Shown: piece after piece, positions 13,480 to 52,508 of the stretch
Numbering within the stretch: the first letter of the stretch is position 1
How the letters are laid out: every line of letters begins with the position of its first letter
The notes under the pieces: generated by a model
Databases searched by the model: none
Told to the model about the DNA's origin: nothing
Seen by the model: the letters and a program-made list of their open reading frames with translations, nothing else
Assembly (NCBI GenBank): GCA_024138025.1
Contig: JAMXBD010000023.1
Location: 1,736,001-1,800,000, forward strand
Direction of reading: 5' to 3'
Origin: Combretum micranthum
Taxonomy: Eukaryota; Streptophyta; Magnoliopsida; Myrtales; Combretaceae
Length of the DNA stretch: 64,000 bases
Translations under genes and position numbers: made by a program

Positions 13480-16400
13480 AGGTCGATTTCAAGGTGGTCA
13501 AGGATTAAAAGCACCAGCTAAAGTTTATGCCGTCTAACTTAGGATACATCTAGTTAGACACTATTGCAGGTACACTTCTTATACTCCCGCATAGTGCTTA
13601 TGTTCTTTTTTATACTGGTGTGAGTTTTTCATGTATCTCTTGAGTTATTAATATCTGTATGTGGTGTGTGTGTTGAATGTACGTTTAAATTTTTGTTTGT
13701 AAACACATCTTTGGGGAGTGGAGCTATGCTGAACCGGATTTGTAAAGATGTGGATATAGAAATAGAAGATAGGCATCTTCCTGTGGATTTAGTAGTCTTG
13801 GATATGGTAGATTTTGATATAATCTTAGGAGTAGACTAGTTGGTAAAGTATCATGCTATGATTGATTGTTACAACCTGGTAGTGGAATTTAGTATGCCAG
13901 ATGGGGATCAGTTTGTATATAAGCTTAAAGTGCAAAGATCTAGCTCTACCTACATATGAGTTGTGGGGAAGGTCAGTTTTAGTGATGGTAGCTATGATGA
14001 TAGAAAGTGAACAAAGGATAGACCTTGTACGGATACCATTTGTATGTGAATACCTTAATGTTTTTTCAGAAGATCTACTAAGGTTGTCACTCGAGAGAGA
14101 AGTAGAGTTTTGCATGGAATTAGTGCCAGGTATTTTGCCTACATCTAAGATACCCTATCGCATGGCTCCAGCAAAACTTGCAAAGCTCAAGGTTCAATTA
14201 GAAGATCTGCTCAAAAAGAATTTTATTGGACCTAGTGTATCACCTTAGGGAGCTCTATTCTATTTGTAAAGAAGAATGATGGCAGTGTGAGGTTATGAAT
14301 AGACTATAGAGAGCTAAACCAAGTGACTATGAAGAATAAGTACTCTCTGCTAAGAATAGATGATTTCTTTGACCGGCTGATAGGAGCACAAATATTTTCA
14401 AAGATTGATCTCAGATCAGATATCACCGGCTGTGGGTTAGAGCAGAGCACATATAGAAGACAGCCTTTAGACCAGGTATGGATGAGTATGTGGTCATGTC
14501 ATTTGGTCTTACAAAATGCATCAGCCATCTTCATGGACCTTATAAACACAGTCTTCAGAGATTATTTAGGTCTGTTTATAGTAGTCTTTATAGATGATGT
14601 TTTGGTGCACTCTAAAACCAAGAAAGAATATGAAGAGCATCTGAGGTTAGTTTTGAATAGATTACAATATGAGAAATTATATGCTAAATTCATGAAGTGT
14701 GAGTTCTTGTTAGAACAAGTATCTTTTTTGGGGCATGCTATTGATGGAAATAGGATAGCAGTGGATCCTGAGAAAGTGAAGGTAGTAGTAGAATGGCTAA
14801 CTCCTAAAATTGTGTCAGAAATTAAAAGTTTATAGGAATGGTAGGATACTACAGAAGATTCGTAGAGGATTTTTCCAAGATTGCAAGTCCTTTAACCAGA
14901 TTGACATAGAAAAGAGTAAAGTATGAATGAGATGAAGACTATGAGAATAACTTCCAGCAGTTAAAGGAAAAGCTAGTATTTGCACTAATGCTAGCCTTAC
15001 CAGTGAATGGTGAGGAGTCTGTTACATATAGTGATGCCTCTATACAAGGATTAGGTTGTGTGTTGATGCAAAGAGGTAGGTTAATAGCATATACTTCCAG
15101 ACAGCTGAAGCCTTATGAAACAATTTGCCCTACACATGATCCGAAACTGGCAGCAGTGGTTCATGTCTTGAAGTTGTGGAGGCATTAACTGTATGGGGAG
15201 AGATATAAAATATATACGGATCATAAAATTATGAAGTATATCTTCACCCAGAAAGAGTTGAATATGAGACAAATGAGATGGTTAGAGCTTATCAATGACT
15301 ATGACATGGATATTCAGTACCATCCTGGGAAGGCGAATGTAGTAGTAGACACCTTAAGTAGAAAGTGAGTTAAGAATCTAGCAGCTTGAATCACTATGTC
15401 ATTAATAGCTTATATGAGAAAGTTAGAGCTAGAGATAGTGACCAGATAAGTAGGTGCAAGACTGATGAACTTGCAGATTCAAGCTACTATTATAGAAAGG
15501 ATCAAAGCAACATGGATAGATAATCCAAGTATATAGGAGGTAAAGAAGAGGATGGAAGTAGGCAGAGTGGCTGGATTTCATATTGATGAAGAAGCTATCA
15601 TGAGATATAAAGGAAGGTTATGTGTGCCAGAGCAAGGAGAACATAAGAAAGAGTTACTTGAAGAGGCACATTACTCTAGTTATTCTATTCATCCGGGAGG
15701 TAACAAGATGTATCATGATCTGAAAGAGCTATATTAGTGGAATAATATGAGAAAAAAAAAAGATTTAAGAATAGTTTTCAAGTGCTACACTTGTCAATCA
15801 ATCAATATTGAGCACAGGAGACAGTAGGTGAATTAAAGCCTCTACTTATACCTCAGTGGAAGTGGAAGCACATAACGATGGATTTTGTTTCTGCTTTGCC
15901 TAAAATAAGGGAAAAGTTCGACTCGGTATGGTTGATTATAGACAGGCTTACAAAGGGAACATGCTTTATAACGATTAAAACTAGGTACCAATTAGAGCAA
16001 TTGGCAAAGTTGTATATCAAGGAGATAGTAAGGTTGCATGGAATACCAGTAACCATTGTATCAGACAGAGATGCTAGATTAGTTAGAAGGTTTTGGAAAA
16101 GCCTACATGAAGGTTTAGGTACTAAAGTTGTTTTCAGTACCACTTACCTCTAGGGGTGTGAAAAAAAACCGAATGTTTAGGATAACCAAACTGAAACCTG
16201 GAAACCAATCCGAAAAAAAACGGTTAACCAATCCATCGGTTTCAGTTTAGGATTAGCATTTTTAATTTTTTCGGTTTTCGGTTTCGGTTTTAATTTTTAG
16301 ATTCTAGAAACCGATGGATTCGGTTAACCGATCCATAATTATAAATATATATAATTTATAATATACCCATATAATTATTTTTTTAGTATTATCAATATGA

Positions 16401-28600: not shown

Positions 28601-31600
28601 GAGAACCTTTACGAGATTTAGTCAAATATCAGCTAATTGATTATTTGAATTGACATGGTTAGTGATAATGCAGTCAGGATGATCTTTTCTCAAATGAAGT
28701 GATAGTGAATCTTTATATGTTTAGTCCTCTTATGAAAGACTGGATTAGAGGATATATGTAATGCAGCTTAGTTATCACAAATCAGCTTCATCTGTGATAT
28801 TTTACAAAATTTTAACTCCAAAGAGTAATTGTTTCAACCAAATGAGCTCACAAGTTGCCAAGGCTATGGCATGGTATTCTGTTTGCACTTGACCTAGCCA
28901 TAATATCTTGCTTTTTACTTTTCATAATATTAGGCTACCTCCAATAAGTACACAATAACCAAAAGTAAATTGTTTATCAAATTGAGAACTTGTTCAGTCA
29001 GCATCACAATATCCAATTACTTAAGAATGACCGCGATTACTTAAGAATGACCACAATCTTTATATAGTAGACTTCTACCTAGAGCACTTTAATATATTGC
29101 TGACAAGTGACAACTGTGTTCCAATGACTTGTACAATGGGATTGGAGAAATTGGCTAACAACACTAATTGCAAAGGATATATTAGATAACTAATTCTGCT
29201 AACCAACTGATGGTATCTACAAGGACCTGCAAATGACTCTCCCTGCCCTAGTAACAATTTCACATTGGGATCCATTGGAGAATCTGTAGACTTGCAATTA
29301 AGCTCGCTTTCTTCTAGAATATCTAAAGCATATTTTCTTTGAGAAATTACTATACCAAAACAGAATGAGCAATTTCTATGCCAAGAAAGTACTTTAATAA
29401 GCCAAAATCCTTGGTCTAGAAATGTTTGAAAGATGTGCCTTTAAGCGATTAGTACCATCTTGATTATCACCAATTATGACAATATCATCTATATACACTG
29501 TTAAGTAAATGCATTGTCCCTTAGATGTGTGCTTATAGAAAACTGAATTATCAGATGTGTTGCCAATCATACCAAACTCTACTACTACAGCACTAAACTA
29601 GCTGAACCAAGCATGTAGAAATTGTTTCAAACCATAACGTGAGCCTTGAAGTTTACATAATAGATTAGACTCTCCTTAAGCAAGACAACTAGGCGATTGC
29701 TCCATATAAATCTCTTCTTGGAGTTCACCATGGAGAAATGCATTTTTAATGTCTAGTTGGTATAAAGGCTAATATTTCATAGCTGCAATGGATAGAAGCA
29801 AGCGAACATAGGACATTTTAGCTACAGGAGAAAATGTATCAACATAATCCAAACCATACACCTGAGTATAACTCTTAACAACCAAGTGAGCGTTAAGTTG
29901 ATCAACTTTACCATCAGGATCAACCTTTATAGCATAAAACCGACACCCAATGAGAGATTTACTAGGAGGTAACAGAACTAAATCCTAAGTACCACTTGTA
30001 TGCAAAGTGGTCATCGCTCTACCATCGCTTGTGTCTACCCTGGATCTGACAGAGCCTCACTCACAATTTTAGGAACAGAAATGGAAAACAAAGATGAAAC
30101 AACGGTACAATAGGATGGGGATAATCGGTGATAGTTAAGACAATTGTAAATGGGGTAAGGATTACAAGTGGAACGGTTACTTTCTGAGGGCTATGGGGAG
30201 GTCTACTTCAGGTAGGTCCTTGGCAGGTGGAGACGTTGGATCAGAAGGTGAGTCAACATGAACCTTTAAAAAATGTGTGTGTAATGAAGGTGGGTGTCGA
30301 AAGCGCCAATGGTAAGCCTATAATGGTGGAAAGGAAGGAATGGAATCAGAAGCAACAAGGACAGGCTCAGGAAGAGTTAACTAAGATGGAATAGGGAAGA
30401 CCTCAGACATAGGGCTTTTAGAGGAGGATGAGGAATAAATGGAAGAAGATTAAAAAATGTAACATCAGGGGAACAGAGAGTAGCGATGAGTAATGGGTGA
30501 ATAACACTTGTAACCTTTTTGATGTTTGGAGTAACCATTGGAAATGCACTTGATGGAATGTGCTGATAGTTTATCCTGACTCAAAGACATATTATGAACA
30601 AAACATGTGTAGCCAAAGATATGTAATGGAAGAGCATACAACGGTTGATCAGGGAATAAGATCGTGAGGAATTTTGTGCTAAAGAACAAAAGAAGACATT
30701 CTGTTAATGCAATAACAAGTAGCAAGAATGGCATTAGCTTAGAAACGAGTGGGTACATGATGGTGTAAAAGACGTACGAGCAATTTCAGTTAGATTCATT
30801 TTTATACTCAGCAACTTTGTTTTGTTGAGGTGTGTAAGCACAAAAGGATTGATGTAAAATGCCATGAGAGGACAAAAATTTAGTAAATAGGGTAGAAAAG
30901 TATTCAGGAACATTGTTAATGCGCAAAATTTGTATAGATGTATTAAATTGTGTTTTGATTTCAGCACAAAATGATTCAAAAATTGAAAATAATTTAAAGC
31001 GACTTCTCATTAAATATAACAAGTACAGTGCGAATAGTCATCAATAAAGGTTACAAAGTACTAAATCCCAAAACTAACTCGACACGACTAGGGCTCCAAA
31101 TATCAAAGTGAACAACAGAAAAGGAGAGGCAACCTGATTATCGACTCGCTTAGGAAAGGAATTTCTAGACTGTCTCCCTAGTTGACAAGACTCATAAGAC
31201 AAATGAGATAAATGAGGAACCATATTCTGAAGCTTAGAGAGACTAGGATGACCAAACGATTGCGAAGAAAAGCTGGAGATACGATAGCAGAACATGCAAT
31301 AGAAGTATTGGAGGATTTGTGAGGTAGTAAAGCCCTTAACCCACATCTCATGTTAACCGTTTGTCCTGTACTGAGGGATTGAAAGATAATAGAATGAGAG
31401 TCCAATTTAATAGAATAGTTTAGAGCATGAGTGACCTTACTAATAGAGACAAGATTAAAAGAACAATGTGGAATATAAAGAATACACTCCCAAGTCAAAG
31501 ATGGTAAGGATTGTGCACTACTTACAGCTTTAGCTATTGCGTTTGAACCATTAGCTATAATCACAGAAGGTAATGAGGCAGATTTTGAAAAGTGAGAAAA

Positions 31601-34600
31601 AAGATGAGGATTACTAGAAATGTGTTCAGAAGCACTAGAATCAACTACCCAAGGACCTAGAGAGGAAGTTTGAGTAAGACATGCAACGAAATTACCATCG
31701 TGGGCAAGGGAAGCAGATAAGGACTACTGTGAAGCTTGATACTGAAGATAATTCTTAAGATCAACTCCAAAGAAGGAGAGATTCGCTATGTTGTCCATTA
31801 GAAGATATAGGATTGGTATTCTGAATGATATTATACCATGGAGGGTGTCCATGCAACTTATGACACTTATCCTATAACCCACCGATGACACTAGGTACAC
31901 CTAGGACAATTTCCCCTATTACCTCACGATCTCCCTTTTGTTCTTCTCTTGTATTTATATGAACTTTGGAAGCCATCTGAGAAGCTAAAGCTAAAATATC
32001 TATAGGAGAAGAACCTTGCAAGGATGCATTAGAAACTAATGATACTTGGAAAAGGCAAGAGAAAACTTCATCCATAGTCGGTACAGTAACACTAGCCAGT
32101 ATTTGATCACGAACTAAAGTAAGATCAGGACCAAGGATAGCAAGAATGCAAACCATGGAAAATTTGTCTCTTTGAGTTAAATCATTCTTGATAGACTGAC
32201 CAGGAGGGAGTGAAGAATTGTACTCAGCCTTAATAGATGCCCATCTATCAAGGAAATCAGTTACAGATATACCCGTCTTAAATTAGGCAAATCAGATATC
32301 ATTGAGTACAAACGTTGATATCATTAGTATAAAGAGCCTTTGTCTGAATTCAAACATCATGACAATTAGTATAATGATTATAAATTAGATAAAGAGAGAG
32401 ATCAATATATTGCCACAAAAGATTCGGTAATAAAGCATCGGCTCTCAACCATTGATCCCTATTCTTTAATACAACATCTGGTGTAGTAATCAAATGGTCG
32501 TGTAGAACCTGACCCATACACTATAATTCAACAGCCTTTGACCAAGAGATGTAATTGGAACTCCCTAGTAGTTTTTCTATTGCAATAGTCGAGGCTAGGG
32601 ATGAGAAGCTCAAAAAAGGACCGGATGCTAAGGACAAACCACCGGTAGTCATGTTAGGATGGAGACAACCCTTAAGAAGAGTTAAAAAATCATTGGTAGA
32701 CAATTGATGGTGGTGATTGACTACAACGGTGCGGCAAAAAGCCTGGCGTTTTTGTGTTTGGACGGCCAATCCTTAACAAAGAAGAAGAGCCGTCAGGTGT
32801 TACAAGAAACGGCTGAAAAAGCAAAATAAAAAAGAAAAGACAAGCAGCGATGGCAGCGGTGTAGTGTGTGGGGGCCTCCGGCGGTTGTCCTCTTGCATTA
32901 TGACGTTGGAGAAGGGAGGAACACGGTGATGTGATTGGATTTCAAATTTGACACCGTGAAGAGAGACAACACTCTTTGACAGCTGCTGGCGTTAGGGTTA
33001 GGGTTTGTGTTTGGGGTTTTTGTTTAAGTGATTTAGATGGTCTAAGGTTTCTCACCTCGTGGCTCTGATACTCTATGTGAATAGAGGGAAGAGAGAGAGA
33101 AACCTTTTGAAATACTTTATTAAAGTATAATAAAATAATATATAGTACAAGTATATATTCATGTACAAAGGACAGTATATGCTAGTCTAAGCCATGTGAG
33201 ATATACAGGCATATATATATATATAACTCAACAGTTGTCATATCCTCTTCCTTTTAATTCTCAAATTTCTATGAATTAGTGAATGATGCAGTTGGTTTTA
33301 CCTTTAACCAAGGAACTGTGTTAGTACAGGGGAACTAGGAGAGAGGATAAAGGGCTGCTTACTTTGAGATGAAAAACTCAATCCCAAATTTCTGCATTTC
33401 TGTGCTGATAAAGTCATTGTAAATTTAGTTCTTGCTATCCTAGAGTTTCAGCTATGAATATGCTAACACTTTTTCTGCTTAAGCTTGAATGTACTAAGAT
33501 AGCATGTAGTGGACCTGACTTTCTGATATACATTGTTTTGATTCGTGTTACTTTGTACCCAGGACTGGGGACTTGTGTATAAAAATGCAATATGGTGAAT
33601 AAAAAATAAAATTTTGATGGGAACAAAGACATATTCTTATATTTGAAGAAATTAATCAATTATATGGACGCTTTTTGCACATTATATGTATTTATTGCCT
33701 CTAGCTGATAGAAATTTTTTCTGTTGTTTTCAGTATTTTGTAGACTGTTTTAATTATATGTGTCCGTATTACTGTCTTACTGAGATGTAGCAGTATTTGC
33801 TCTTTGCACAATCTAGCAAAATTGATGGCTATGTGAACTTTGCAGATACATTATCATCTTCTTGAAGGAGCATGGCAAGGAGGTATATCTTGAGGTTCGC
33901 AGTGCGTATATAGACACCATGAATAAGGTATCATCAATTGTTTCTATCAGTTTTCTGAATGAATTTGGGACAGAATTGTGAATCATAGTGGTTCATGCAC
34001 ATGTTTCTTGATCATTTTCTCTATATGCCTTCTGCACCTGTGTTTTGCTTAAGAACAACAAAACCAAATATAGGACAGCACTAATCATATCTTTGAAACT
34101 TAGTGAATATATTTCTGAAAATTCCCTTCCCAATTTGATGATTGTAACCCAGCAAAGGTTTCCCGTGAAGATAAGGAAAGTCTTTTAAGTATTCAAATTT
34201 CAAGTACTTTTCTCCACACTTAGAACTGTTACATTAATGACTCTGTATCTTTGTTTTGTGACTTTAAACTGTTGAATATACTTTAACCATCTACTATCTA
34301 TTTATCTATTTTGTCAAATGCTCCTTTTCAGTTTAATTATTGCCTAGTGCCTGCGTGCCTAATGCCTGTTATGTTTTCTTTTAATGTTTCTGTTCTGTGC
34401 AAGCCACCTTTTGGGACTACAGAAAACTTTTGTGCTGCTAAGCTTAATGTTAAATTTTGAAAGGATGTCTCCAAAGAACCTTATAATGAAGGAAGGATGA
34501 CTTGCACTTTTTCAGCACATGGAGTGCATTGGGGATATTAACATGCACAGGCATATCTCTAGAAGGCTTTTCTCATTTGGATGACCCTCTCCTTTTAGAC

Positions 34601-41660: not shown

Positions 41661-41716
41661 GGTTAGCTTCATTTGTTTTTTATTTATTTCGAAACCAATA
41701 ATTGGTAACGGTGGAG

Positions 41717-41905
41717 GGGAAAAAGAACATAATATTATTATTTTTAAAAATAATTACGAAAATGCCATTGGGATGAAATTAATCTCAAGTTTAGGCAACG
41801 TGACCTCGTCTCTTCAAGAGACGAGACCGTTAGTGCTTGATCTCGTCTCCTGAAGAAATGATGTCAAAAACATGAAGTTACCTCATCTCTTTAAGAGACG
41901 AAGTC
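41717..41905. repeat. MULE left terminal inverted repeat with three hairpin motifs
   Basis: Three palindrome-like units follow the AT-rich tip: 41802-41827 (CCTCGTCTCTTCAAGAGACG…), about 41840-41865 (CTCGTCTCCTGAAGAAATGA) and 41881-41903 (CCTCATCTCTTTAAGAGACG). The right end has the same three in mirror order. Confidence 0.85.
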
Positions 41906-42689
41906 ATCGGAGTCATAACTCGCAACAGCCTTCTTCTTCTTTATTCTGCTTCAGAGGAGAAAAGCCCCAAATTGAAAAATCTGAAACTTTAACTCTCAAT
42001 TTTTTATTTCCAACCCGACTTCCAAGCAATTGCCTCCGTATTTTGCATTATTTGGATCACTAGGCGTTGTGGAAGTGTTAATTTGATGAAGAGAAGTGAT
42101 TCGCGCAAGAAGGTAGAAATTTTTTTTATTTTTTTAGTGTTGCGATTTTGTTCTTCGATTTTATCCAAATTATTTGTCGTTTTTGATGTTGCATTGCTAT
42201 ATATTAGGTGTTATGGGTGTTGTTTTGTTGAAATTGTTAAGTGCATTTGATGTTGCATTGATGTATATCATTAAATTGTTAAGTGCTATTATGTTTGATT
42301 TTTTTTTTCGTAATCCAATTTTGTCCAAATTTTTTATCGTTTTTGATGTTGCATTGCTATATATTAGGTGTTGTTGGTGTTATTTTGTTGAAATTGTTAT
42401 ATACATTTGATGTTGCATTGTTGTATATCGTTAAATTGTTAAGTACTATTACGTTTAATTAATAAAATCCCAATTTAGCTTAATTACATTATTTGTTAAA
42501 TTAAAATAGGATAAATAAGTTAATATGGGTTAAATTAATAAAATAGGTCCATATAACACATAATGTTAAATATAGTCAAGGTCGATATTGTTGTATTAGG
42601 ACTTATGTGAAATATTATGATGGTGCAATTGATAAGTGATGATGCAACTTTCATGCATTCGAACTATATTTTATGAGATGGCAGGGTCG

Positions 42690-45209
42690 GTAAGGAAATG
42701 GATAAGGCAAAATTTATATTGTATGCTCATGGGAATATTATACAAGGCGACGATGGTTTTGGTTATGATCAGTAGCCAGTTGTTGTGGTCAGTGTTAGTA
42801 AAACTCATCATATGAGCAAATAGTGGACATCATTTGCAATAGACTCAAGGTAAACAAGTGTACACATCGAGTGGAGCTATACCATAGGGTAGCTATTGGA
42901 GATAGGACACTGCATTATGATATAATTCCAATGACTGATGATGATACTGCATAGGAGATGTTTGTATACACTGAAGGGTTAGTAGCTGTTTATGTTCAGA
43001 TATTTGAAAATGAGTTGTTACAGGCACCTGCAGGTGAAATACGCATTCATGGGAATGTTGGGAGCCAAGGCTTGTTAGACTCGAACTCTACTCCAGCTCA
43101 AATAGTAGGGAGCGAACAACTGAACATGGGTAACTTTCAAATGTGTGCACCGAAATTGACAGGCGGTCGTGATACGGATGGCATTATGGACTCCACGGCA
43201 AGTGAATCAAGTTATGACTGCGATGATGGTGGAAATGATAATATAGAAGCTTGCCCTGAACTAGATACTATTCCAAAAGTGCAACAAAGGAGAAATGGCT
43301 GGCGCTGGTTTCTTGCTCCCATTCGATGCCTGTACCATTTATTACTACTAAAGTTAGCAGTAGTTATCCTACATATGATGATGAGCAGGAAATGAGCGCT
43401 AGGAATTGGAGTTTCAGTGATGAATTCAAGGTTAGGATGCAGTTTAAGACTAAAGATCATCTGATACGGGCAGTTAAAATGTGGCATATATCGAATCATT
43501 ACAATTTCAAGGTGGTGGACTTGGACCCAAGATCATGGGCAGTTAAATGTACTGATACTAATAGGAGAGGTCATAAGTGGAGACTCAGAGGTAGTTACAA
43601 GAAACATGATGGGTGGTTTCACATCACTAAATATGAAGGACCTTACACCTGCTTTGATGAAATAACTAGACAGGATCACTTCCAGCTGAACTCCACCTAC
43701 ATGTCCAAATGCATCATATTGGAGATTCGTAACTCACCAGATGTGAGGGCGACGGACCTATAATTGACCATCTTAAAGGAGTTTGGATACAATGTTCATA
43801 TAAAGAGAATTTGTAAGGCGAAGAGAAAAGCTATTGAGCAGGTTTATGGAAGTTGGGAAGATTCATATGTAGATCTCACACATTTACTAAATGCAATAAC
43901 TGAGGCTAATCCGAGAACAAAATATGAGTGGAGAATCGTTGATTCAAATATCGTTGGACACGTCTTTTTAGACAAGATATTTTGGGCTTTTGGGCCTTAC
44001 GTTGAAGCATTTCAGTACTGTAGGTATGCTCTCCATATATGATCAAATTTAGTTAAAACAATAACATCTATGAACTAAATTTAATCTTTTAATTCTTTGC
44101 AAACCTGTAATCATAGTGGATGGAACCTTCTTGTATGGCAAGTATAAGCACAAATTGCTTATTGCAGTAGCAGTTGATGGGGCAAATCATATTGTTCCGC
44201 TAGCGTATGCTGTTGTCGACGAGGAAAGCGCGGATACTTGGATTTGGTTCCTTGCGATAGTGTTAAAACATGTTATCAAAGACTGATCAAATATATGCTT
44301 GATATCGGATCGGCATGATAGGATCAAGAGTGCGGTTGAGGGTAAGAATGTTGTGTAGCCTAAAGGATGGCCTTAGCGTTGGTGTATCTGGCATGTTGCT
44401 AGCAATTTCAATTCCAATTCCAAGGCTAAAAGTAAGGAATGTAAGGAAATAGTTAAAAGAGCTGCATACCAAACCCAGAGAAGAAAGTTCCATGACTACT
44501 TCAATACCGCAGTACAAAATAGTCTTTGGACATCGCGATATTTTCGCGAGTTGCCTCAATGTATGTGGACTTTATGTTATAACGAAGGGGTGAGGTTTGG
44601 GATAGGTATAACAAACATGGCTAAAAGTTACAATTCAGTCATAAAAGATGCTCGGTGCTTACCCGTGGCGATGTTAGTTAAAAAAACATTCTATAATTGC
44701 AACTCAATCTTCAACAAGCAAAGGATGGAGGCAACCGAGGTAATGAGTATGGGGAAGTTGCTCACAGGATTTGTTGCGGATAAGTTTGAGAGATGGAACA
44801 ACATCTCAAGTGTCCATAGAGTAACTTGTTTCGACTACCAGGAACGAATATTTGAAGTTATAATCGCTTTGTGCCCTACGATGTATGGTCAGAAGGGGGA
44901 CCACATACAAAAAGTACAGTTGAGGGCAAGCAAATGTATTTGTAACAAGTGGCAGACATATAGAATTCCATGCTCACATGCAATGGCTGTCATGGGAACA
45001 CTGCACATGGATTGTGTTGCCCAAGTGGGACAATGGTACAGGTGGAACACCCAGCTTAAGGTGTATGGCCGCTCATTCATACCGGCAGCCGATAAGTGTA
45101 ATTGGACTCCTTTGGATATTGCGAAATGGTACCCCCACCTAAGTCTTATAAGGAAAAAGGGTAGACATAGGGAGAAGCTATCAGAACGAGATGGATATTC
45201 GAGATGACC
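42690..45209 (+). pseudogene. MURA-type MULE transposase, degenerate
   Basis: An N-terminal PB1-like segment (ELYHRVAIGDRTLHYD … DDDTA) at about 42860-42960 is followed by a spacer. The MuDR DNA-binding domain comes next (FSDEFKVRMQFKTKDHLIRAV, KYEGPYTC, about 43410-43760). The DDE transposase domain has VDGTFLYGKY (first Asp at 44119-44121) and ISDRHDRIKSAVE (near 44300). A SWIM zinc finger CIC-KWQTYRIPCSH lies at about 44935-44979. Defects are a stop at 43761-43763, a TGA at 44284-44286, another near 42953, frameshifts at about 43390 and 44340-44560, and an intron (44024-44102) whose 3' end reads GCAAA where GCAGA is expected, so the acceptor AG is lost. The protein would have cut and joined the element's ends. 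This copy cannot. Confidence 0.9.
44024..44102 (+). other. Transposase intron with a lost splice acceptor
   Basis: Donor TGTAG|GTATGC at 44024. The protein frame resumes with the CCT GTA ATC codons after TTTGCAAA, where AG has become AA (44101-44102). Position and phase match the usual 'YCR-PV..VDGT' junction. Confidence 0.6.
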
Positions 45210-45421
45210 CACGAGGTCACTCATGCGATTCCTGTGGACAGTCAAGGCATAACATTCGAAGTTATCCTAATAAGGGTCGGCTAGTAGAACAATGACGTCA
45301 TTTGAGTCATAGTGTAAGTTTTTGTATGCTTTGTTTTATTGAACTTATCTATCATACTTTTATATTTTAGTTAGTTCTTTACTTTCATCACTAATAATGT
45401 TCATTACTTTTTCTATTACAA

Positions 45422-47560
45422 ATGGATCCAGGACCTAGCGATGACTCTCTACTTTATGGACAGCCTGTGCATAGATCGAAGCTGGCATAGAGAGGCAGGT
45501 AAGCTTTTGTCTTTAGACAATTGCTTTCAACATATGAAGATTGTTACTAATAAGTTTGATGACTTTTCTACAGGAGCATGTTGTTTTACACTGCCGCCGT
45601 AGGGAGGCGAGGCTGAGGTGGTAGGATGGCAAACCTGCACATCTAGACGATCGGTTGGTGCCATTCCTATCTTAGGCCGGTTTCATAGGGGTAGCCTAAA
45701 TTCCTTTTGTACAGCTTGATTGGCATCAAATCATGGCGTTGGTGGAGAGGTGGCGCCCCGGGACACATACTTTCCACATGACCACGAGGGAGTGGTCTGT
45801 TACGCTACAGGATGTTGCTGTCTTGACCGGCCTTCCTGTAGATGGTGATGTAGTTATGGGCACGGCTCGGCTGGATTGGGGTGATCCGTGTGAGGAGCTC
45901 CTTAGCCTTCGACCTGTGGTAGGGACTCATATGGATGGTGGTCGTCTGAGGATGTCATGGTTAGACGCCCACTTCAAAGTGCTACCCGACTATGTTGATG
46001 ATCAAACGCCATGCCAAGTATACATCTTGCTGTTGCTTGGAGGATTCATTGTTACAGACAAGTCGTCCAACTATGTCTACCTGATGTACTTACAGTTGCT
46101 CCGGGATTTTGAGAGAGCCGGGTAGTACGCGTGGGGAGTGGCCTCTTTGGCATGGTTGTACAGGTAGCTTTGCTTGGCTTCAAACATTGACACATGGGAC
46201 ATTGCTGGACCATTAGTTCCTCCAAATATGGGCCTGGAAGGACTTCCCCCACATTGCCCCGATGCGGCAGCAGATTACTTTAGTCACAGAAGGCTGCCCA
46301 CTCCTTAGTCAATGGGGTGCGTCTTTTGACATGGCCCGGATAGCCACCCACTTACTCATTAAGTATCGAGGATGTTTTGACAGGCAGATTGATCGACATG
46401 TATGATTTCCACTATCTTCTTTCCTACCAGTTGCAGCTTTTACACAATTCATACTATACTTTTCGTCTTGAACAGGTTGTGTGGGAACCATATAGGACTA
46501 TCGTGGCTCCTACCTCCATACTACCGTGTGGGCAGTGATATTTGGCGTTCACGGGTCCTCCTAGTTGCTTCTATCTTGTAGAGCACTACTACCCAGATAG
46601 AGTGATCAGACAGTTCGGAGGATTCCAGGGGATCCTACACCCGCCTGCCAGCATGAGAGCCATGCATGAGATTGACATGCGAGGGCGTTCCAAGTAGAAT
46701 TGGCAGGCAGAGCACGCCAGATGGATAGCTGAGTGGGATGGTCAGCGTGATCGGATTGTGGAAGTGATCCATATGGACACTAGCACCTCTGATGATTACT
46801 TTGATTAGTTTCATTAGATGACCCGGCACTGGATCGGTCTCACAGGGGCTATCATACACTACATGGTAAGCTCACTGACTATATAAGATGTACATGGACA
46901 TACACTGTGTTTTTTCCATTCCCTGATACACCTATTTTCTTTTGCTTACAAGCAGATTTCATTCGTCGCGTCCCACACATGCCTGTAGAGAACACTCCAT
47001 CCTTTGCACTAGAGGTCATTCGTGTAGTAGATGAGTTCATGGGAATTAACTTAAATGATCCAGCACCACCAGCGCTAGGACCTGATGACCCACAACCTCA
47101 GCCAGTATAGAGGCGGCGTCCACATAGAGAGAGGCGTGTGCGGGGATAGGGTGGTCGGCCATGACATGTTCACATTACAAACGAGCTTGAGTCGTTCGAT
47201 GTACCTGTGTTTGATGAGCCCGCTCCTCCACAGCTCATTCATGGTGAGCCTAGCACGTCTTCTTCATATACTTGTCTGGGGAATATCCCTATGCCAGACC
47301 CATCATACAGTGAGTTTCATACCCCTTTAGCTCCACAGAAAAGGCGACCATCGCCTTCACATGATATAGGGGAGGGACTCATACAGGTGGAGCCAGACCC
47401 TATCACATTTCATCGTTACAGTCCTGTTGGTGGAGATGATGAGGGCACGCTCACACAAATTGACCCATCCATGCAACATCCTTATCAGCACACACCATTC
47501 TCTCGTACTTTTTTCGGATGGGGACAAGGGAGGTGGGGTAGACAGCAGCAGCAACAGTAG
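45422..47560 (+). pseudogene. Plant mobile domain (PMD/MAIN-like) gene carried by the MULE
   Basis: Exon 1 starts ATGGATCCAGG (45422) and ends 45498. Exon 2 runs 45574-46399 and holds the core PMD (Pfam PF10536): VERWRPGTHTFHMTTREWSVTLQDVAVLTGLPVDG-type reading, then the LLLLGGFIVTDKS and 'YAWGVASLAWLYR' segments. Exon 3 (46476-46865) has VVWEPYR and YYPDRVIRQFGG. The last exon (from about 46956 to 47560) is Pro-rich and ends in a Gln run. GT-AG borders support this layout. At least ten stops break it, many at expected Gln or Trp codons (for example 45489-45491, 46123-46125 and 46165-46167). PMD proteins occur as host genes (MAIN family, genome stability and TE silencing) and inside transposons. 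Its role in this MULE is unknown. Confidence 0.88.
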
Positions 47561-47816
47561 TTACGCCTATATTTTTTCCTTTTCGATTACTTTGTACAGC
47601 TTCTATGATGATTGGGTTTGGAATTGTGTTTGAATGAATTGGGTTAGAACTGTATTTGGATGGATTGGGGTGTATTTTACAATTAGTTTAGCCATGGTAG
47701 ATGAGGGCTAATTTTTATGTTGTCTGATAGTTATTTACATGTGATTTTCACAGGTTTTATTACTAATGTAAAAAAAAGGCAAATTTTTTTCAAAAAAGTT
47801 AGGTTTTTGGAGAAAT

Positions 47817-48013
47817 AGTCTAACCTCGTCTCTTCAAAAGACGAGGTATCTCCGTGTTTTTAATCTCGTCTCTTTACGAGACGAGGTCATGCACTAACGA
47901 CCTCGTTTCTTGAAAATACGAGGTCAATATGCCTAAAGTTGGGATTAATTTCATCCCAGTAGCATTTTCGTAATTATTTTTAAAAATAATAATATTATAT
48001 TCCTTGTCTCAAT
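47817..48013. repeat. MULE right terminal inverted repeat with three hairpin motifs
   Basis: Palindromic units at 47823-47847 (CCTCGTCTCTTCAAAAGACG…), 47863-47886 (CTCGTCTCTTTACGAGACGA) and 47900-47925 (CCTCGTTTCTTGAAAATACG…). Then comes the AT-rich tip that pairs with the left end. Confidence 0.85.
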
Positions 48014-49248
48014 GGTGGAGTCCCTAGTGTAGTCCCCAGATTTCCAGACTCATACTATGTTTAGTTGAATAAAATGAAATCAGTATTTCAGTTTCATCCC
48101 TGCGAAATATTTATTCATTTGTTTGGTTTGCGAAGAAATCTATTAAAAGAATGTCTATTTCATAGGATGTGGAAAAGGTAAGGAATCTTCATTTCTTCAT
48201 TAGAGGAACAACTATTTCTGATTAAAAAGTATGTTATGTTTCAAAAACATCTCTAATTATAAAATGAATAACAATTCATTTCCAATCTTATTCTATTAAG
48301 TGTACCAAATTCTAGTTGGCCTACTTTTCTAAAGTAGCTTATTATCCAATTGTCTTTGTTGGTGGTGGATGATTCCCCCACCGTCTAGGAAGTTTCAGCA
48401 TTGCATTAAGGTTTTGCATTTATATCTTTTCTTAATTTAATAAACAATATCATAATTAGTGAAAATTATTTGAAAATCGGATTGATTTTTTTTTAAGTTT
48501 TAAAAAATTATAAACTGAACCATGCATTTAGGTTTCATTTAAAAAAAAAAGAAATTATTGAATCATAAAATTTGATTAGGTTGGTTAAAGAGGCAGATTA
48601 TATCAAACTGTACTGCACCTACCTCCATATATAAGTTCTTCAACTTACAAATTTTTGCTTTTGTAGTAGACATCACTTTTTATTAAGTCAAGTCTAAAGA
48701 GCGGGTTAATGATGAGTAATGGCACTCAAGTTTAAATAGAGTATTAAATTTTAGTGGTCAAAATAAAATATCGTACTAAGTAGTTTAAATAAAGAATCCA
48801 TTGCAATGTGGTTATAACACTTACCATAATATTGGTATCCATTGAAAGTTTATCTCTCTTTTTTGACTGTATAGTATAACATTGATCATATATATTAATC
48901 ATTGAAATTTTGATCTTTATTTAAACTTGATCTTGTTTCCATTTTTCGTTTAAATTCCAAGAACTAAGTTATCAAAATAAGTCAAATTACGATGTTTTTT
49001 TAATTTCAAGAATTAATGGAAAACTTGGATCTTCCAATGTTTTTTTAATTTCATTTCAAGACCTGTAGCTTAATTTAATTTTGTTACTATTTCAACAAAA
49101 TTTTGACGGTCTTGAAATGGGAGTGACTGAGATCCTATTTTTGACACAAATTCACTTCGGTTGTGAAACAAAAGTTCCAAAAACACAAGTGCTAAAAAAA
49201 AAATTACAGGACCTTTTTATGTATTTTGTCCAATTTATCCCCTATAAA
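48014..49248. other. Intergenic AT-rich stretch
   Basis: No gene, RNA gene or paired repeat recognised. The short ORF at 49081-49266 has no known domain. Confidence 0.5.
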
Positions 49249-50140: not shown

Positions 50141-50942
50141 TAACATACATTTTGTAATAGCCATGCTTTTATTCCCAATATCATATTATATATGTCGAGC
50201 CTGGATTTTTCCACTATCTGGTTCATTTCTCCTAACCCGATTCACATTAAACCCGAACCCATTTAACATGAATCCTCGACTAGAGGTTAAGAGAAATTTT
50301 AATTTTTGAAAATTTTTAGAGTCGCCACCCGATATAAATTTGGAAAAAAAAAAGCTAGGATCAATGGGTCGGTTGATCCTAACTTAGTTACTAGTCTGCG
50401 AAAATTTGATTTAAAAACCAAACTTTTAAAACCAGATATCATGGATTCGGGGGCTAACCTATTAAAACCAAATGGTTATCACTTTTGGAATTTTAAATTT
50501 ATAATCTATCCTTTTCATACTCAAAAACTCAAATAATATATTTACAAGTCACATTTTTTGTTTTTCTTTTTATATTTTTATATTTTTATTGCTCAAAAAT
50601 TTCACAAAAATAACCAAAATGATAAACAAAAATATTTTTTCATTTTTTATTGTCGCCCCGTAGGTGCGTACGTACTCGCTAATCGAGATCAGACAAAACG
50701 TAGTTCTTTTAAAAAAAGAACTTAATTTGTTGATCAATTTTATATTTTTGAACTATTCTCACTTTAAGTTCATTAAATTTTAAATTTTTATGAAAATCAT
50801 TTTTGATGATCCTATGATCTAATCAATTGATTTTTTATGTTATGAAAACATATTTTTCTAAGTCCAAAAATCATTTTTTCTAAAATCATTTCATGATAAT
50901 TCATGGCTAATTTAATGCTACATGAAAAATCAATTTGATTAA

Positions 50943-51390
50943 ACTTGAATGAATATTTTCATAGCAAATTTATAAAAATATTTTGATGAAAACTTTAATT
51001 ATTATTTCCATAGTAAATTTATGAAAATAATTTGAACAATTTTTTATTATTATCTTCATAGTAAATTTATGAAGATAATATTGAGGAAAAACTTTATTAT
51101 CTTCATAGCAAATTTATGAAGATAACTTGATTGAAACTTTCAATTATTTTCATAGACAATTTATGAAAATAATTTGATTAAAAACTTTTGATTATTATTT
51201 TCATAGCAAATTTATGAAAATATTTGATGAAAAACTTGAATTATTATCTTCATAGCAAATTTATGAAGATATTTTGAGGAAAAACTTTAATGATTATCTT
51301 CATAGCAAATTTATGAAGATATTTTTGAGGAAACTTTAATGATTATCTTCATGGCAAATTTATTATATGAAGATAATTTGATTAAAACTT
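50943..51390. repeat. Minisatellite, 9 copies of about 49 bp, each with a small hairpin
   Basis: Core CTTCATAGCAAATTTATGAAG or TTTCATAGCAAATTTATGAAA recurs at about 50958, 51007, 51053, 51101, 51148, 51199, 51248, 51298 and 51346. Spacers are AT-rich (GATGAAAACTTTAATTATT type). In each of seven copies both arms carry the same variant, so the stem is kept. The last copy has an ATTAT insertion in the right arm. Confidence 0.9.
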
Positions 51391-52334: not shown

Positions 52335-52350
52335 AGCTGGAGGGGAAGTG

Positions 52351-52508
52351 AAACGGATCACGACCATTAATGGCCGTTACAAAACTTGAACTCGTCGGTT
52401 ACAAATTGATTCTAAGGATCGGGGGATTGAAACGGATCATGACCATTAATGGTCGTTACAAAACTTGAACTCGTCAGTTACAAATTGATTCTAAGGATCG
52501 GGGGTTAC
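52351..52508. repeat. 79-bp tandem duplication
   Basis: Two units (52351-52429, 52430-52508) starting AAACGGATCA and ending GATCGGGGG plus two or three bases. They differ at a few transitions (CACGACC/CATGACC, GGCCG/GGTCG, CGGTT/CAGTT). It is located upstream of the LTR's minus-strand TATA box, in its U3. Confidence 0.9.

Follow-up and report, generated by a model that had tools for sequence, protein, structure and literature searches.

The stretch of Combretum micranthum DNA analysed here (the window, 64,000 nucleotides) contains at 41717-48010 a dead Mutator-like element (MULE) that retains remnants of a transposase gene and of a plant mobile domain (PMD) gene, and each of its ends carries three palindromic units. 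Units of this kind recur across the genome as arrays at a fixed distance from the tips of related elements, and a second family of PMD-bearing MULEs has the same end layout built on an unrelated palindrome. We propose, with about even confidence, that the palindromes are arrays of putative dyad-symmetric, family-specific binding sites whose reader is encoded by the elements themselves.

Table 1. Features of the family 1 element in the window (TSD, target site duplication; TIR, terminal inverted repeat; E values from Pfam).
Feature	Position	Strand	Remarks
Left TSD, AACGGTGGAG	41707-41716	.	9/10 identical to right TSD
Left TIR	41717-41906	+	Likeness stops at inner edge of palindrome 3; 83% identical to right end over 186 bp
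Outer AT-rich 18-bp palindrome	left 41737-41754, right 47973-47990	.	TIR positions 21-38
Second outer inverted repeat, TGGGAT..AT(C/T)(C/T)CA	left 41769-41787, right 47940-47958	.	TIR positions 53-71
Palindromic unit 1, left	41801-41829	.	
Palindromic unit 2, left	41838-41866	.	Most decayed; 9/14 pairs remain
Palindromic unit 3, left	41878-41906	.	
Transposase piece, DBD_Tnp_Mut	43260-43763	+	E 3.1e-4, 20.8 bits; below cut-off (25)
Transposase piece, MULE transposase domain	44074-44286	+	E 3.6e-11; above cut-off
Transposase piece, SWIM zinc finger	44377-45207	+	E 1.7e-5; above cut-off; motif E to K
PMD, first part	45700-46125	+	E 7.8e-29
PMD, second part	46217-46405	+	E 5.3e-4; below cut-off
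Probable C-terminal part of PMD gene	47165-47560	+	No Pfam family
Right TIR	47821-48010	-	83% identical to left end over 186 bp
Palindromic unit 3, right	47821-47849	.	
Palindromic unit 2, right	47861-47889	.	
Palindromic unit 1, right	47898-47926	.	
Right TSD, AATGGTGGAG	48011-48020	.	10 bp; 9/10 identical to left TSD

Transposase domains, long TIRs and a TSD place the element in the MULE superfamily (Table 1). A preliminary description had set its limits at 41717 and 48013; the left end stands, while TIR and TSD both put the right end 3 bp further in. The PMD gene adjoins the transposase gene, an order shared with the second family, and a frame similar to its probable C-terminal part occurs at 17 of the 20 loci L001-L020, being missing in L010, L011 and L014. 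The transposase exon has three in-frame stops and the TNMAESYN motif reads K for E. This dead state, and the two outer short inverted repeats in each tip, had been overlooked in the preliminary description. When small shifts of the ends were permitted, 16 of 19 other copies had a best flanking repeat of 8-11 bp with at most 1 mismatch, 9 of them perfect; no such TSD was found at L003, L007 or L009. An Rfam search of the window gave no match.

All six palindromic units first described in this element are present where they had been placed, and the spacer GTTAGTGC was found at both ends. Five of the six differ from CTCGTCTCTTNAAGAGACGAG at no more than 3 positions, as against 0 such matches in 100 shuffles. 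The preliminary remark that most sites retain a palindromic form is fair: 64 of 84 stem pairs are unaltered, and the changes comprise 18 on one side, 2 on both sides without pairing and 0 that are compensated. The outer 18-bp palindrome pairs in 455 of 554 pair cells across 63 hand-placed ends (control stretches, 90/874 and 264/869), and the second outer inverted repeat in 395 of 562.

The 21-bp core of the palindrome has 3,550 exact copies in the 1.86-Gb genome, and its reversed control has 0. Several samples of this family (family 1) underlie the counts that follow. The 40 scored TIR matches, of 1,776 candidates, were obtained with a query that itself contained units; the sample retrieved by the palindrome only consists of 20 loci on contig C1 among the 100 matches listed, which form 22 clusters (the other two are L017 and L055). 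The 63 hand-placed ends, used for subfamily, outer-repeat and geometry counts, come from the window and L001-L040, with L031 and several other tips omitted, and every outer-TIR match in all loci was therefore recounted, giving 95 tips. L041-L055 are part of this recount and of the covariation set, and lie outside the hand-placed geometry counts. One array is common to L004 and L010, and another to L009 and L018; these were counted as separate fetched loci. Units were counted up to 7-8 mismatches.

A lack of hairpins in other copies, which would have spoken against the preliminary description, is not what the recount shows: 91 of the 95 tips found by the outer repeat have a unit, and in 80 the first unit has its centre 97-101 bp inward of the tip. 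Among the four exceptions, the L012 tip has half a unit left, L009:4467 has lost its inner part, and L009:1504 and L063:1280 look like tips with decayed units. A further 12 partial outer-TIR matches divide into 8 with a unit and 4 without (L004, L013, L030 and L055). The first unit-to-unit gap is 37 bp in 39 of 58 ends, and 195 of 220 pooled gaps (those up to 60 bp) measure 37-40 bp. Ends have 1-8 units; their TIRs are composite and differ in how many internal repeats they contain, as in foldback-type MULEs; L002 has a higher-order repeat of ~77 bp. Arrays also occur in gene-less copies. Three copies (L024, L025 and L036) are short, at 306-313 bp, have TSDs and contain little besides the outer TIR and two units per end, which suggests that these parts suffice in cis. 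Among elements with TSDs, the left ends of L017 and L019 have one unit (TSD 8/9 in both) and that of L012 has half a unit (TSD 9/9), and several sites at both ends are therefore not strictly required.

Neighbouring units are 83.9% identical (n=160), and neighbouring spacers, compared for unit gaps of 34-43 bp, resemble each other about as much as chance predicts (0.285 vs 0.263 shuffled, n=100); plain tandem duplication thus does not explain the identical units. Between subfamilies A and B the units have similarities of 0.79 and 0.73 and the outer TIR 0.80, as against 0.50 for spacer 1. Within subfamily A, spacer 1 (0.73, on only 8 columns) is nearly level with the units (0.78 and 0.79), and the outer ~85 bp reach 0.865; this outer block is conserved at least as well as the units. 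The preliminary description had held that stems decaying at the rate of spacers would speak against its hairpins. Such equal decay is seen within the window copy, whose ends differ at 19 of 87 unit and 3 of 19 spacer positions, whereas the comparison between subfamilies shows the units preserved and spacer 1 diverged. After insertion, stems decay as fast as elsewhere. Among the C/G positions within unit positions 3-23, decay is strongest at the CpG positions 5, 6, 20 and 21.

We considered the conserved outer block as the transposase site. The longest identical run between the two ends of the window element is 37 bp (permutation P 0.013). This run is rich in A and T, and the proportion of G/C sites that differ between the ends is alike in units (18/47) and outer TIR (10/26), a split biased by definition in that transversions are the one kind of difference open to A/T-only sites; the identity is thus mostly a matter of composition, and the candidate was set aside. 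Two known motifs were likewise rejected. The unit contains GTCTC..GAGAC, like the auxin response element, yet the preceding base is mostly C; for a W-box, the unit edges are too variable.

The second family (family 2) repeats this layout with a palindrome unrelated to that of family 1. Its first centre lies 96-98 bp from the tip in 7 of 9 placed ends, a set that leaves out the tips of L063 and L077, which could not be placed. The stems have ten pairs around many different 3-nt centres, and exist in a C-type, GGCGCCGTT-NNN-AACGGCGCC, with 147 exact sites, and a T-type, GGCGCTGTC-NNN-GACAGCGCC, with 76. Only 1 site is a hybrid of C-type and T-type arms, while simple arithmetic gives ~101 were the arms independent. 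Compared with the window element, family 2 is 35-37% identical in the DBD and 30-43% in the C-terminal transposase pieces. Two families with two motifs amount to family-specific motif arrays in noncoding DNA, a trait shared with VANDAL/VANC systems.

The preliminary description, which offered transposase sites, hairpin or small-RNA sources and replication structures as possible roles and asked whether a PMD reads the ends, is partly supported. The binding-site reading, to which we give roughly equal chances of being right or wrong, would account for these observations as follows. An element-encoded protein would bind the units, most likely a transposase dimer that uses its N-terminal zinc finger; the end complex would owe its geometry to a first site ~98 bp from the tip and a second ~37 bp inward, and extra sites, which can be gained or lost, would raise occupancy. 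As families diverge, site and reader would change together, such that each transposase mobilises its own family. There is precedent in maize MURA, which is described in PMC3310237 as binding a ~32-bp motif in the TIR. Counting against the proposal, the outer ~85 bp could hold the transposase site alone, and gene-less copies are uninformative as to which protein acts in trans.

Should the units instead form hairpins in RNA or DNA, acting as cruciforms, foldback structures or sources of small RNA, the folding of the right end as single-stranded DNA into five hairpins (z = -5.6) and of the left end as RNA (z = -3.8) would be expected, as would the ten-pair stems of family 2, which keep pairing in both forms with 1 hybrid against ~101. 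The compensatory changes that the preliminary description proposed seeking show no excess over expectation in family 1 (25 vs 22.6 +- 4.0) and take the shape in family 2 of two symmetric forms with one hybrid, possibly a single old change. Among 275 distinct family 1 units, identical 33-mers being counted once, 2839 cells pair versus 2832.1 +- 8.2, so that arms change independently, although the test is weak for the active period because many changes arose after insertion in dead copies. The lack of covariation in family 1 makes RNA hairpins less favoured; moreover, 250 of the 275 family 1 units have C or G at the centre and the units are regularly spaced, neither of which hairpins require, and we regard the hairpin reading as improbable. 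We judge equally improbable a promoter in which host transcription factors dimerise on the units and drive transcription from the ends. MuDR TIRs do have promoters and enhancer motifs according to PMC3310237, and the transposase pieces are found downstream of the left array, but unrelated factors would be needed at one address in two families, and arrays persist at both ends as well as in short elements that lack genes. Least probable of all, to the point of being very doubtful, is a functionless repeat spread by unequal exchange and passively carried. The range of 1-8 units, the higher-order repeat in L002, post-insertion decay as fast in stems as elsewhere and the near-equal similarity of spacer 1 and units in subfamily A speak for it; unrelated neighbouring spacers and the same geometry with another motif in family 2 argue against it.

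The remaining alternative concerns the PMD. Palindromes of one or the other family's kind adjoin 16 of 19 sampled PMD loci; these flanks were hand-picked from 117 scored matches and cover the downstream side only. An anti-silencing role, in which the PMD or another accessory protein binds the arrays and keeps the ends unsilenced as VANC does, with fast motif divergence confining it to its own family, seems to us rather unlikely, though less so than hairpins or a promoter. It fits the association with PMD loci, the unrelated motif in the same layout in a second PMD family, which is a VANC-like prediction, and the most-decayed CpG positions, which are expected of methylated DNA. VANC targets, as PMC10398659 describes them, are fast-diverging repeats in noncoding parts of VANDALs; in PMC5418596 the use of a captured PMD against silencing is a stated speculation, and a table in PMC6446971 gives "PMD and/or DUF" for half of the VANDAL group. 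On the other side, the account of VANC targets in PMC10398659 is of short-motif tandem repeats, with neither palindromes nor a fixed tip distance, and we infer that a fixed address suits end assembly better. Arrays are present in L001, L003, L005 and L008 with no detected PMD, although service in trans is conceivable. PMD is also not known to bind DNA. Searched against Pfam, seven pieces of the decayed window element matched above cut-off just transposase and PMD families, and no VANC-like gene was recognised among them. Slightly more plausible, but still tentative, is a lock-and-key end code in PMD-bearing MULEs, in which each family combines the fixed address (~98 bp, then ~37 bp on) with its own palindrome and its own reader, which could be the PMD as a sequence-specific anti-silencer. 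If so, the PMD would be a MULE counterpart of VANC, a hint at the captured domain's job.

These observations bear on how MULE transposases recognise long ends and on why some MULEs bear a PMD gene, a matter taken up in the discussion of PMC5418596. Two families with equal end geometry and unrelated palindromes constitute a natural swap experiment. If the transposase reads the palindromes, they clearly exemplify a joint change of site and reader; if the PMD does, it becomes possible to test what the PMD does in MULEs and perhaps what the host proteins MAIN and MAIL1 do.

The union of MULE and PMD is already known, as are repeat-built MULE ends. The preliminary statement that such hairpins are not a standard MULE feature was thus too strong, given the ends of Muta1 and Tm1, although we found no description in the literature of spaced palindromes at a fixed address in MULE ends. 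The sole literature match to six family 1 motif strings was 12 letters in an unrelated cardiology paper. Family 2 strings of 10 letters match 215 papers; the 20 of these that were listed are unrelated, judged by title and opening of the abstract, which allows no conclusion for family 2. In the collections viral_contigs and genome_contigs, which are poor in plant DNA and whose negatives therefore say little, there were no exact palindrome matches and no transposase relatives, and when the translation of a frame running across an array served as protein query, also against collections poor in plant DNA, 0 of 561 candidates scored. Closest in gene content are the plant MULEs with a PMD gene (MUDR, MDR and MUDRAVI2, PMC6446971; MULE-borne PMD-C, PMC5418596), which share the MULE/SWIM transposase, PMD, long TIRs and a 9-10-bp TSD; the likeness drawn here is one of domains and TIR/TSD, and palindrome arrays go unmentioned where these papers describe the elements. 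Muta1 and other Aedes MULEs, as presented in PMC5225508, share a short outer TIR motif followed by a subterminal repeat array whose number varies among derivatives, and the Muta1 transposase mobilises derivatives whose TIRs vary in length; they differ in having 12-bp tandem repeats with 3-4-bp spacers and an animal host, and that account names no PMD and leaves repeat symmetry unstated. In the Tm1 Mutator/Foldback elements of root-knot nematodes the TIRs are composite and contain a ~14-bp motif in varying copy number, the TSD is 9 bp long and there are MITE-like derivatives, but the transposase is of Phantom type and the motif is a different one, and the relevant part of PMC3169594 describes no fixed-address palindromes. 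The SIRC cassettes of Arabidopsis have short repeats, some of them palindromic, with unrelated spacers and a MITE/MuDR link, whereas most of their repeats are non-palindromic or short-armed and no fixed address figures in their description in PMC10342631. VANDAL/VANC systems share family-specific, fast-diverging noncoding motif arrays in a plant MULE with an accessory gene (PMC10398659), and some VANDALs may bear a PMD, to judge from the table line in PMC6446971. As described in PMC10398659, VANDALs have degenerate TIRs and motifs in tandem repeats, whereas the window element has long TIRs and palindromes at a fixed distance.

The element in the window (see table) has terminal inverted repeats with 83% identity across 186 bp, and the three palindromic units, near TGACCTCGTCTCTT-N-AAGAGACGAGGTCA, that the preliminary description had reported for each terminal repeat are present at both ends. 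Its reading of the element as a MULE with transposase and PMD gene was also borne out, as MULE, SWIM and PMD pieces were recovered with Pfam on the + strand, with DBD_Tnp_Mut below the cut-off. The copy is dead: across a 370-residue alignment (59%) to a relative's transposase, its own is broken by three in-frame stops, and the E of its TNMAESYN motif, which, as in IS256-type transposases, would be the catalytic E, is replaced by K. A 160-bp tandem duplication (42127-42446, 84-90% alike) lies between the transposase and the left TIR.

Features located in the window
Feature	Coordinates	Strand	Details
MULE	41717-48010		TSD 10 bp, 9 identical
Reverse transcriptase piece	14299-14835	+	RVT_1
Retrotransposon polyprotein piece	31178-31723	-	Pol_BBD
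AT-rich tandem array	50926-51363		period 49, about 9 copies
Tandem repeat	52342-52504		79 bp, 94% matches

Querying all 5,442 contigs (1.86 Gb) of the genome with the left TIR of this element gave 1,776 first-look candidates, 40 of which were scored and all inspected: the window's two ends, 24 matches in loci L001-L020 and 14 in L041-L054. Of the 41 ends that we placed across the window and loci L001-L020, 40 have at least one unit, the lone exception being the left end of L012, where half a unit is left, and two or more units were found at 14/14 matches of L041-L054. The palindromes recur in other copies of this family (family 1); the preliminary description had named their absence from other copies as a refutation. 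When loci on a single contig were picked by palindrome alone, the TIR outer part adjoined in 20/20, the weakest being L031 (E 7e-7). Genome-wide, exact matches to the core CTCGTCTCTTNAAGAGACGAG number 3,550, against 0 for its reversed-sequence control; for the unit in 221,291 bases of fetched DNA, a shuffled control preserving single-base composition only gave 0 and a reversed control 1.

We then counted every full outer-TIR match over all fetched loci, which yielded 95 tips, the outermost ends of the TIR. A unit accompanied 80/83 tips in the window and L001-L055 and 11/12 in PMD flanks, and the centre of the outermost unit lay 97-101 bp from the tip in 80/95 (73 + 7). The four tips without a unit comprise L012, with its half unit, L009:1504 and L063:1280, which look like holders of decayed units, and L009:4467, whose outer-TIR match ends at TIR position 65. 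Twelve more matches to the outer TIR were partial; a unit accompanied 8 of these and was absent from 4. Among 63 hand-placed ends, unbroken runs held 0-8 units, most commonly 3 or 4, and the first unit-to-unit gap was 37 bp in 39/58; pooled gaps (up to 60 bp) were 37-40 bp in 195/220. The left end of L002 contains, at about 387-640, a higher-order repeat of about 77 bp, each period comprising two units with their two spacers, a pattern that unequal exchange would produce.

Transposase pieces occur in most of the fetched coding family-1 copies and PMD in many. PMD was not detected in L001, L003, L005 and L008, nor any gene at all in L011 and L014; palindrome arrays are nonetheless present in all six. 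Short nonautonomous elements of 306-313 bp (L024, L025 and L036) are made up almost wholly of an outer TIR part and a pair of units at each end, and with small shifts permitted have TSDs of 10/11, a perfect 11 bp and a perfect 9 bp, respectively.

The preliminary description had further counted stem decay at the spacer rate as a refutation, and such decay is what the window copy shows: its left and right ends differ at 19/87 unit positions, 3/19 spacer positions and 11/84 positions of the outer part. Its 84 stem pairs comprise 64 intact ones, 18 altered on one side and 2 altered on both sides that no longer pair, with 0 compensated; post-insertion stem decay here is like that of the rest, as a dead copy would show. 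Across family 1, neighbouring units share 83.9% identity (n=160), and neighbouring spacers score 0.285 versus 0.263 when shuffled (n=100). Copies form two subfamilies, A and B, whose identity to the window inside the element is mostly 82-90% and mostly 68-82%. Mean identities for outer TIR, unit 1, unit 2 and spacer 1 are 0.80, 0.79, 0.73 and 0.50 between A and B, 0.865, 0.78, 0.79 and 0.73 within A, and 0.85, 0.88, 0.72 and 0.485 within B; the contrast of units over spacers is thus clear between subfamilies and within B and weak within A, and conservation of the outer TIR is similar to that of the units. In L011, L012, L014 and L015, with end divergence of 1-2%, there are 1.2-1.7 mismatches per 24 unit positions, so units were near perfect when these copies moved. 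In 275 distinct family-1 units, 2,839/3,300 cells pair, against 2,832.1 +- 8.2 with arms redealt, and 25 compensatory changes were observed against 22.6 +- 4.0. The arms change independently, a result of little weight for the active period because many changes are decay after insertion. The unit centre is C or G in 250/275, and among 460 changes in 233 units, 220 are of the G-to-A or C-to-T type.

A genome search with PMD (PF10536) gave 7,649 candidates, 117 of them scored. Dozens of the matches have long stop-free frames and near-identical scores, a pattern suggesting that a PMD element family was recently active. In 19 hand-picked PMD flanks, downstream side only, family-1 units were found in 11 (L075 one only), another palindrome in 5 (L074 one clear unit only) and neither in 3 (L064, L067 and L071); the stop-free PMD of L064 is perhaps a host gene.

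This other palindrome, AGGCGCCGTT-NNN-AACGGCGCCT, marks a second PMD-MULE family; its exact core is present at 147 genome sites with many different centres (reversed control 0). In three whole elements (L068-L070) transposase and PMD stand in the order of the window element, and identity to the latter is 35-37% in the DBD, 30-43% in C-terminal transposase pieces, 36-49% in PMD pieces and 45-88% over short stretches of N-terminal transposase pieces. TSDs match at 10/10 in L069 and 8/10 in L070; none was found for L068. The first centre lies 96-98 bp from the tip in 7/9 placed ends, a set that leaves out L063 and L077, whose tips are unplaceable. The ends off this address are L059 (121) and the right end of L068 (134, not about 98), where a long G run lies between the tip of the TIR and its first palindrome. 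In sequence the family-2 outer part does not resemble the family-1 one, but two short inverted repeats are present here too. The palindrome also has a symmetric variant, GGCGCTGTC-NNN-GACAGCGCC, found at 76 genome sites (control 0); it was the outermost unit in 6/6 cases among 34 units. Hybrids of the two forms number 1 genome site versus about 101 expected for independent arms (from 147, 76 and 1), a scarcity that may reflect one old change that later spread, because the sites are related by descent. The family-1 outer TIR at L063:1280 (+), with its decayed unit, is close to a family-2 array that has also decayed; one may have inserted into the other.

A shared address, similar spacing and unrelated dyad-symmetric motifs are the trace that a two-fold symmetric DNA-binding protein, different in each family, would be expected to leave, and such a protein is the putative reader of the units. 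The transposase is the likelier candidate, since the units keep a constant distance from the cut ends and are retained, together with the outer part, in the shortest mobile copies. The most interesting rival is that the arrays may have a PMD-linked anti-silencing role, as VANC proteins have in VANDALs (PMC10398659) and as the authors of PMC5418596 speculate for PMD captured by MULEs.

Our family counts all come from one genome, and in the open-licence literature searched we found no description of spaced, fixed-address palindromes differing between PMD-MULE families. Published work already records PMD-bearing MULEs (PMC6446971, including its table; PMC5418596), MULE ends built from repeats in Muta1 and in Tm1 (PMC3169594 for Tm1), and repeat-bearing VANDALs and SIRC cassettes (PMC10342631 for SIRC). 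The maize MURA binding site is a ~32-bp TIR motif, and promoters reside in MuDR TIRs (PMC3310237). Muta1 ends are built of repeats whose number varies, and derivatives are mobilised by the Muta1 transposase (PMC5225508).
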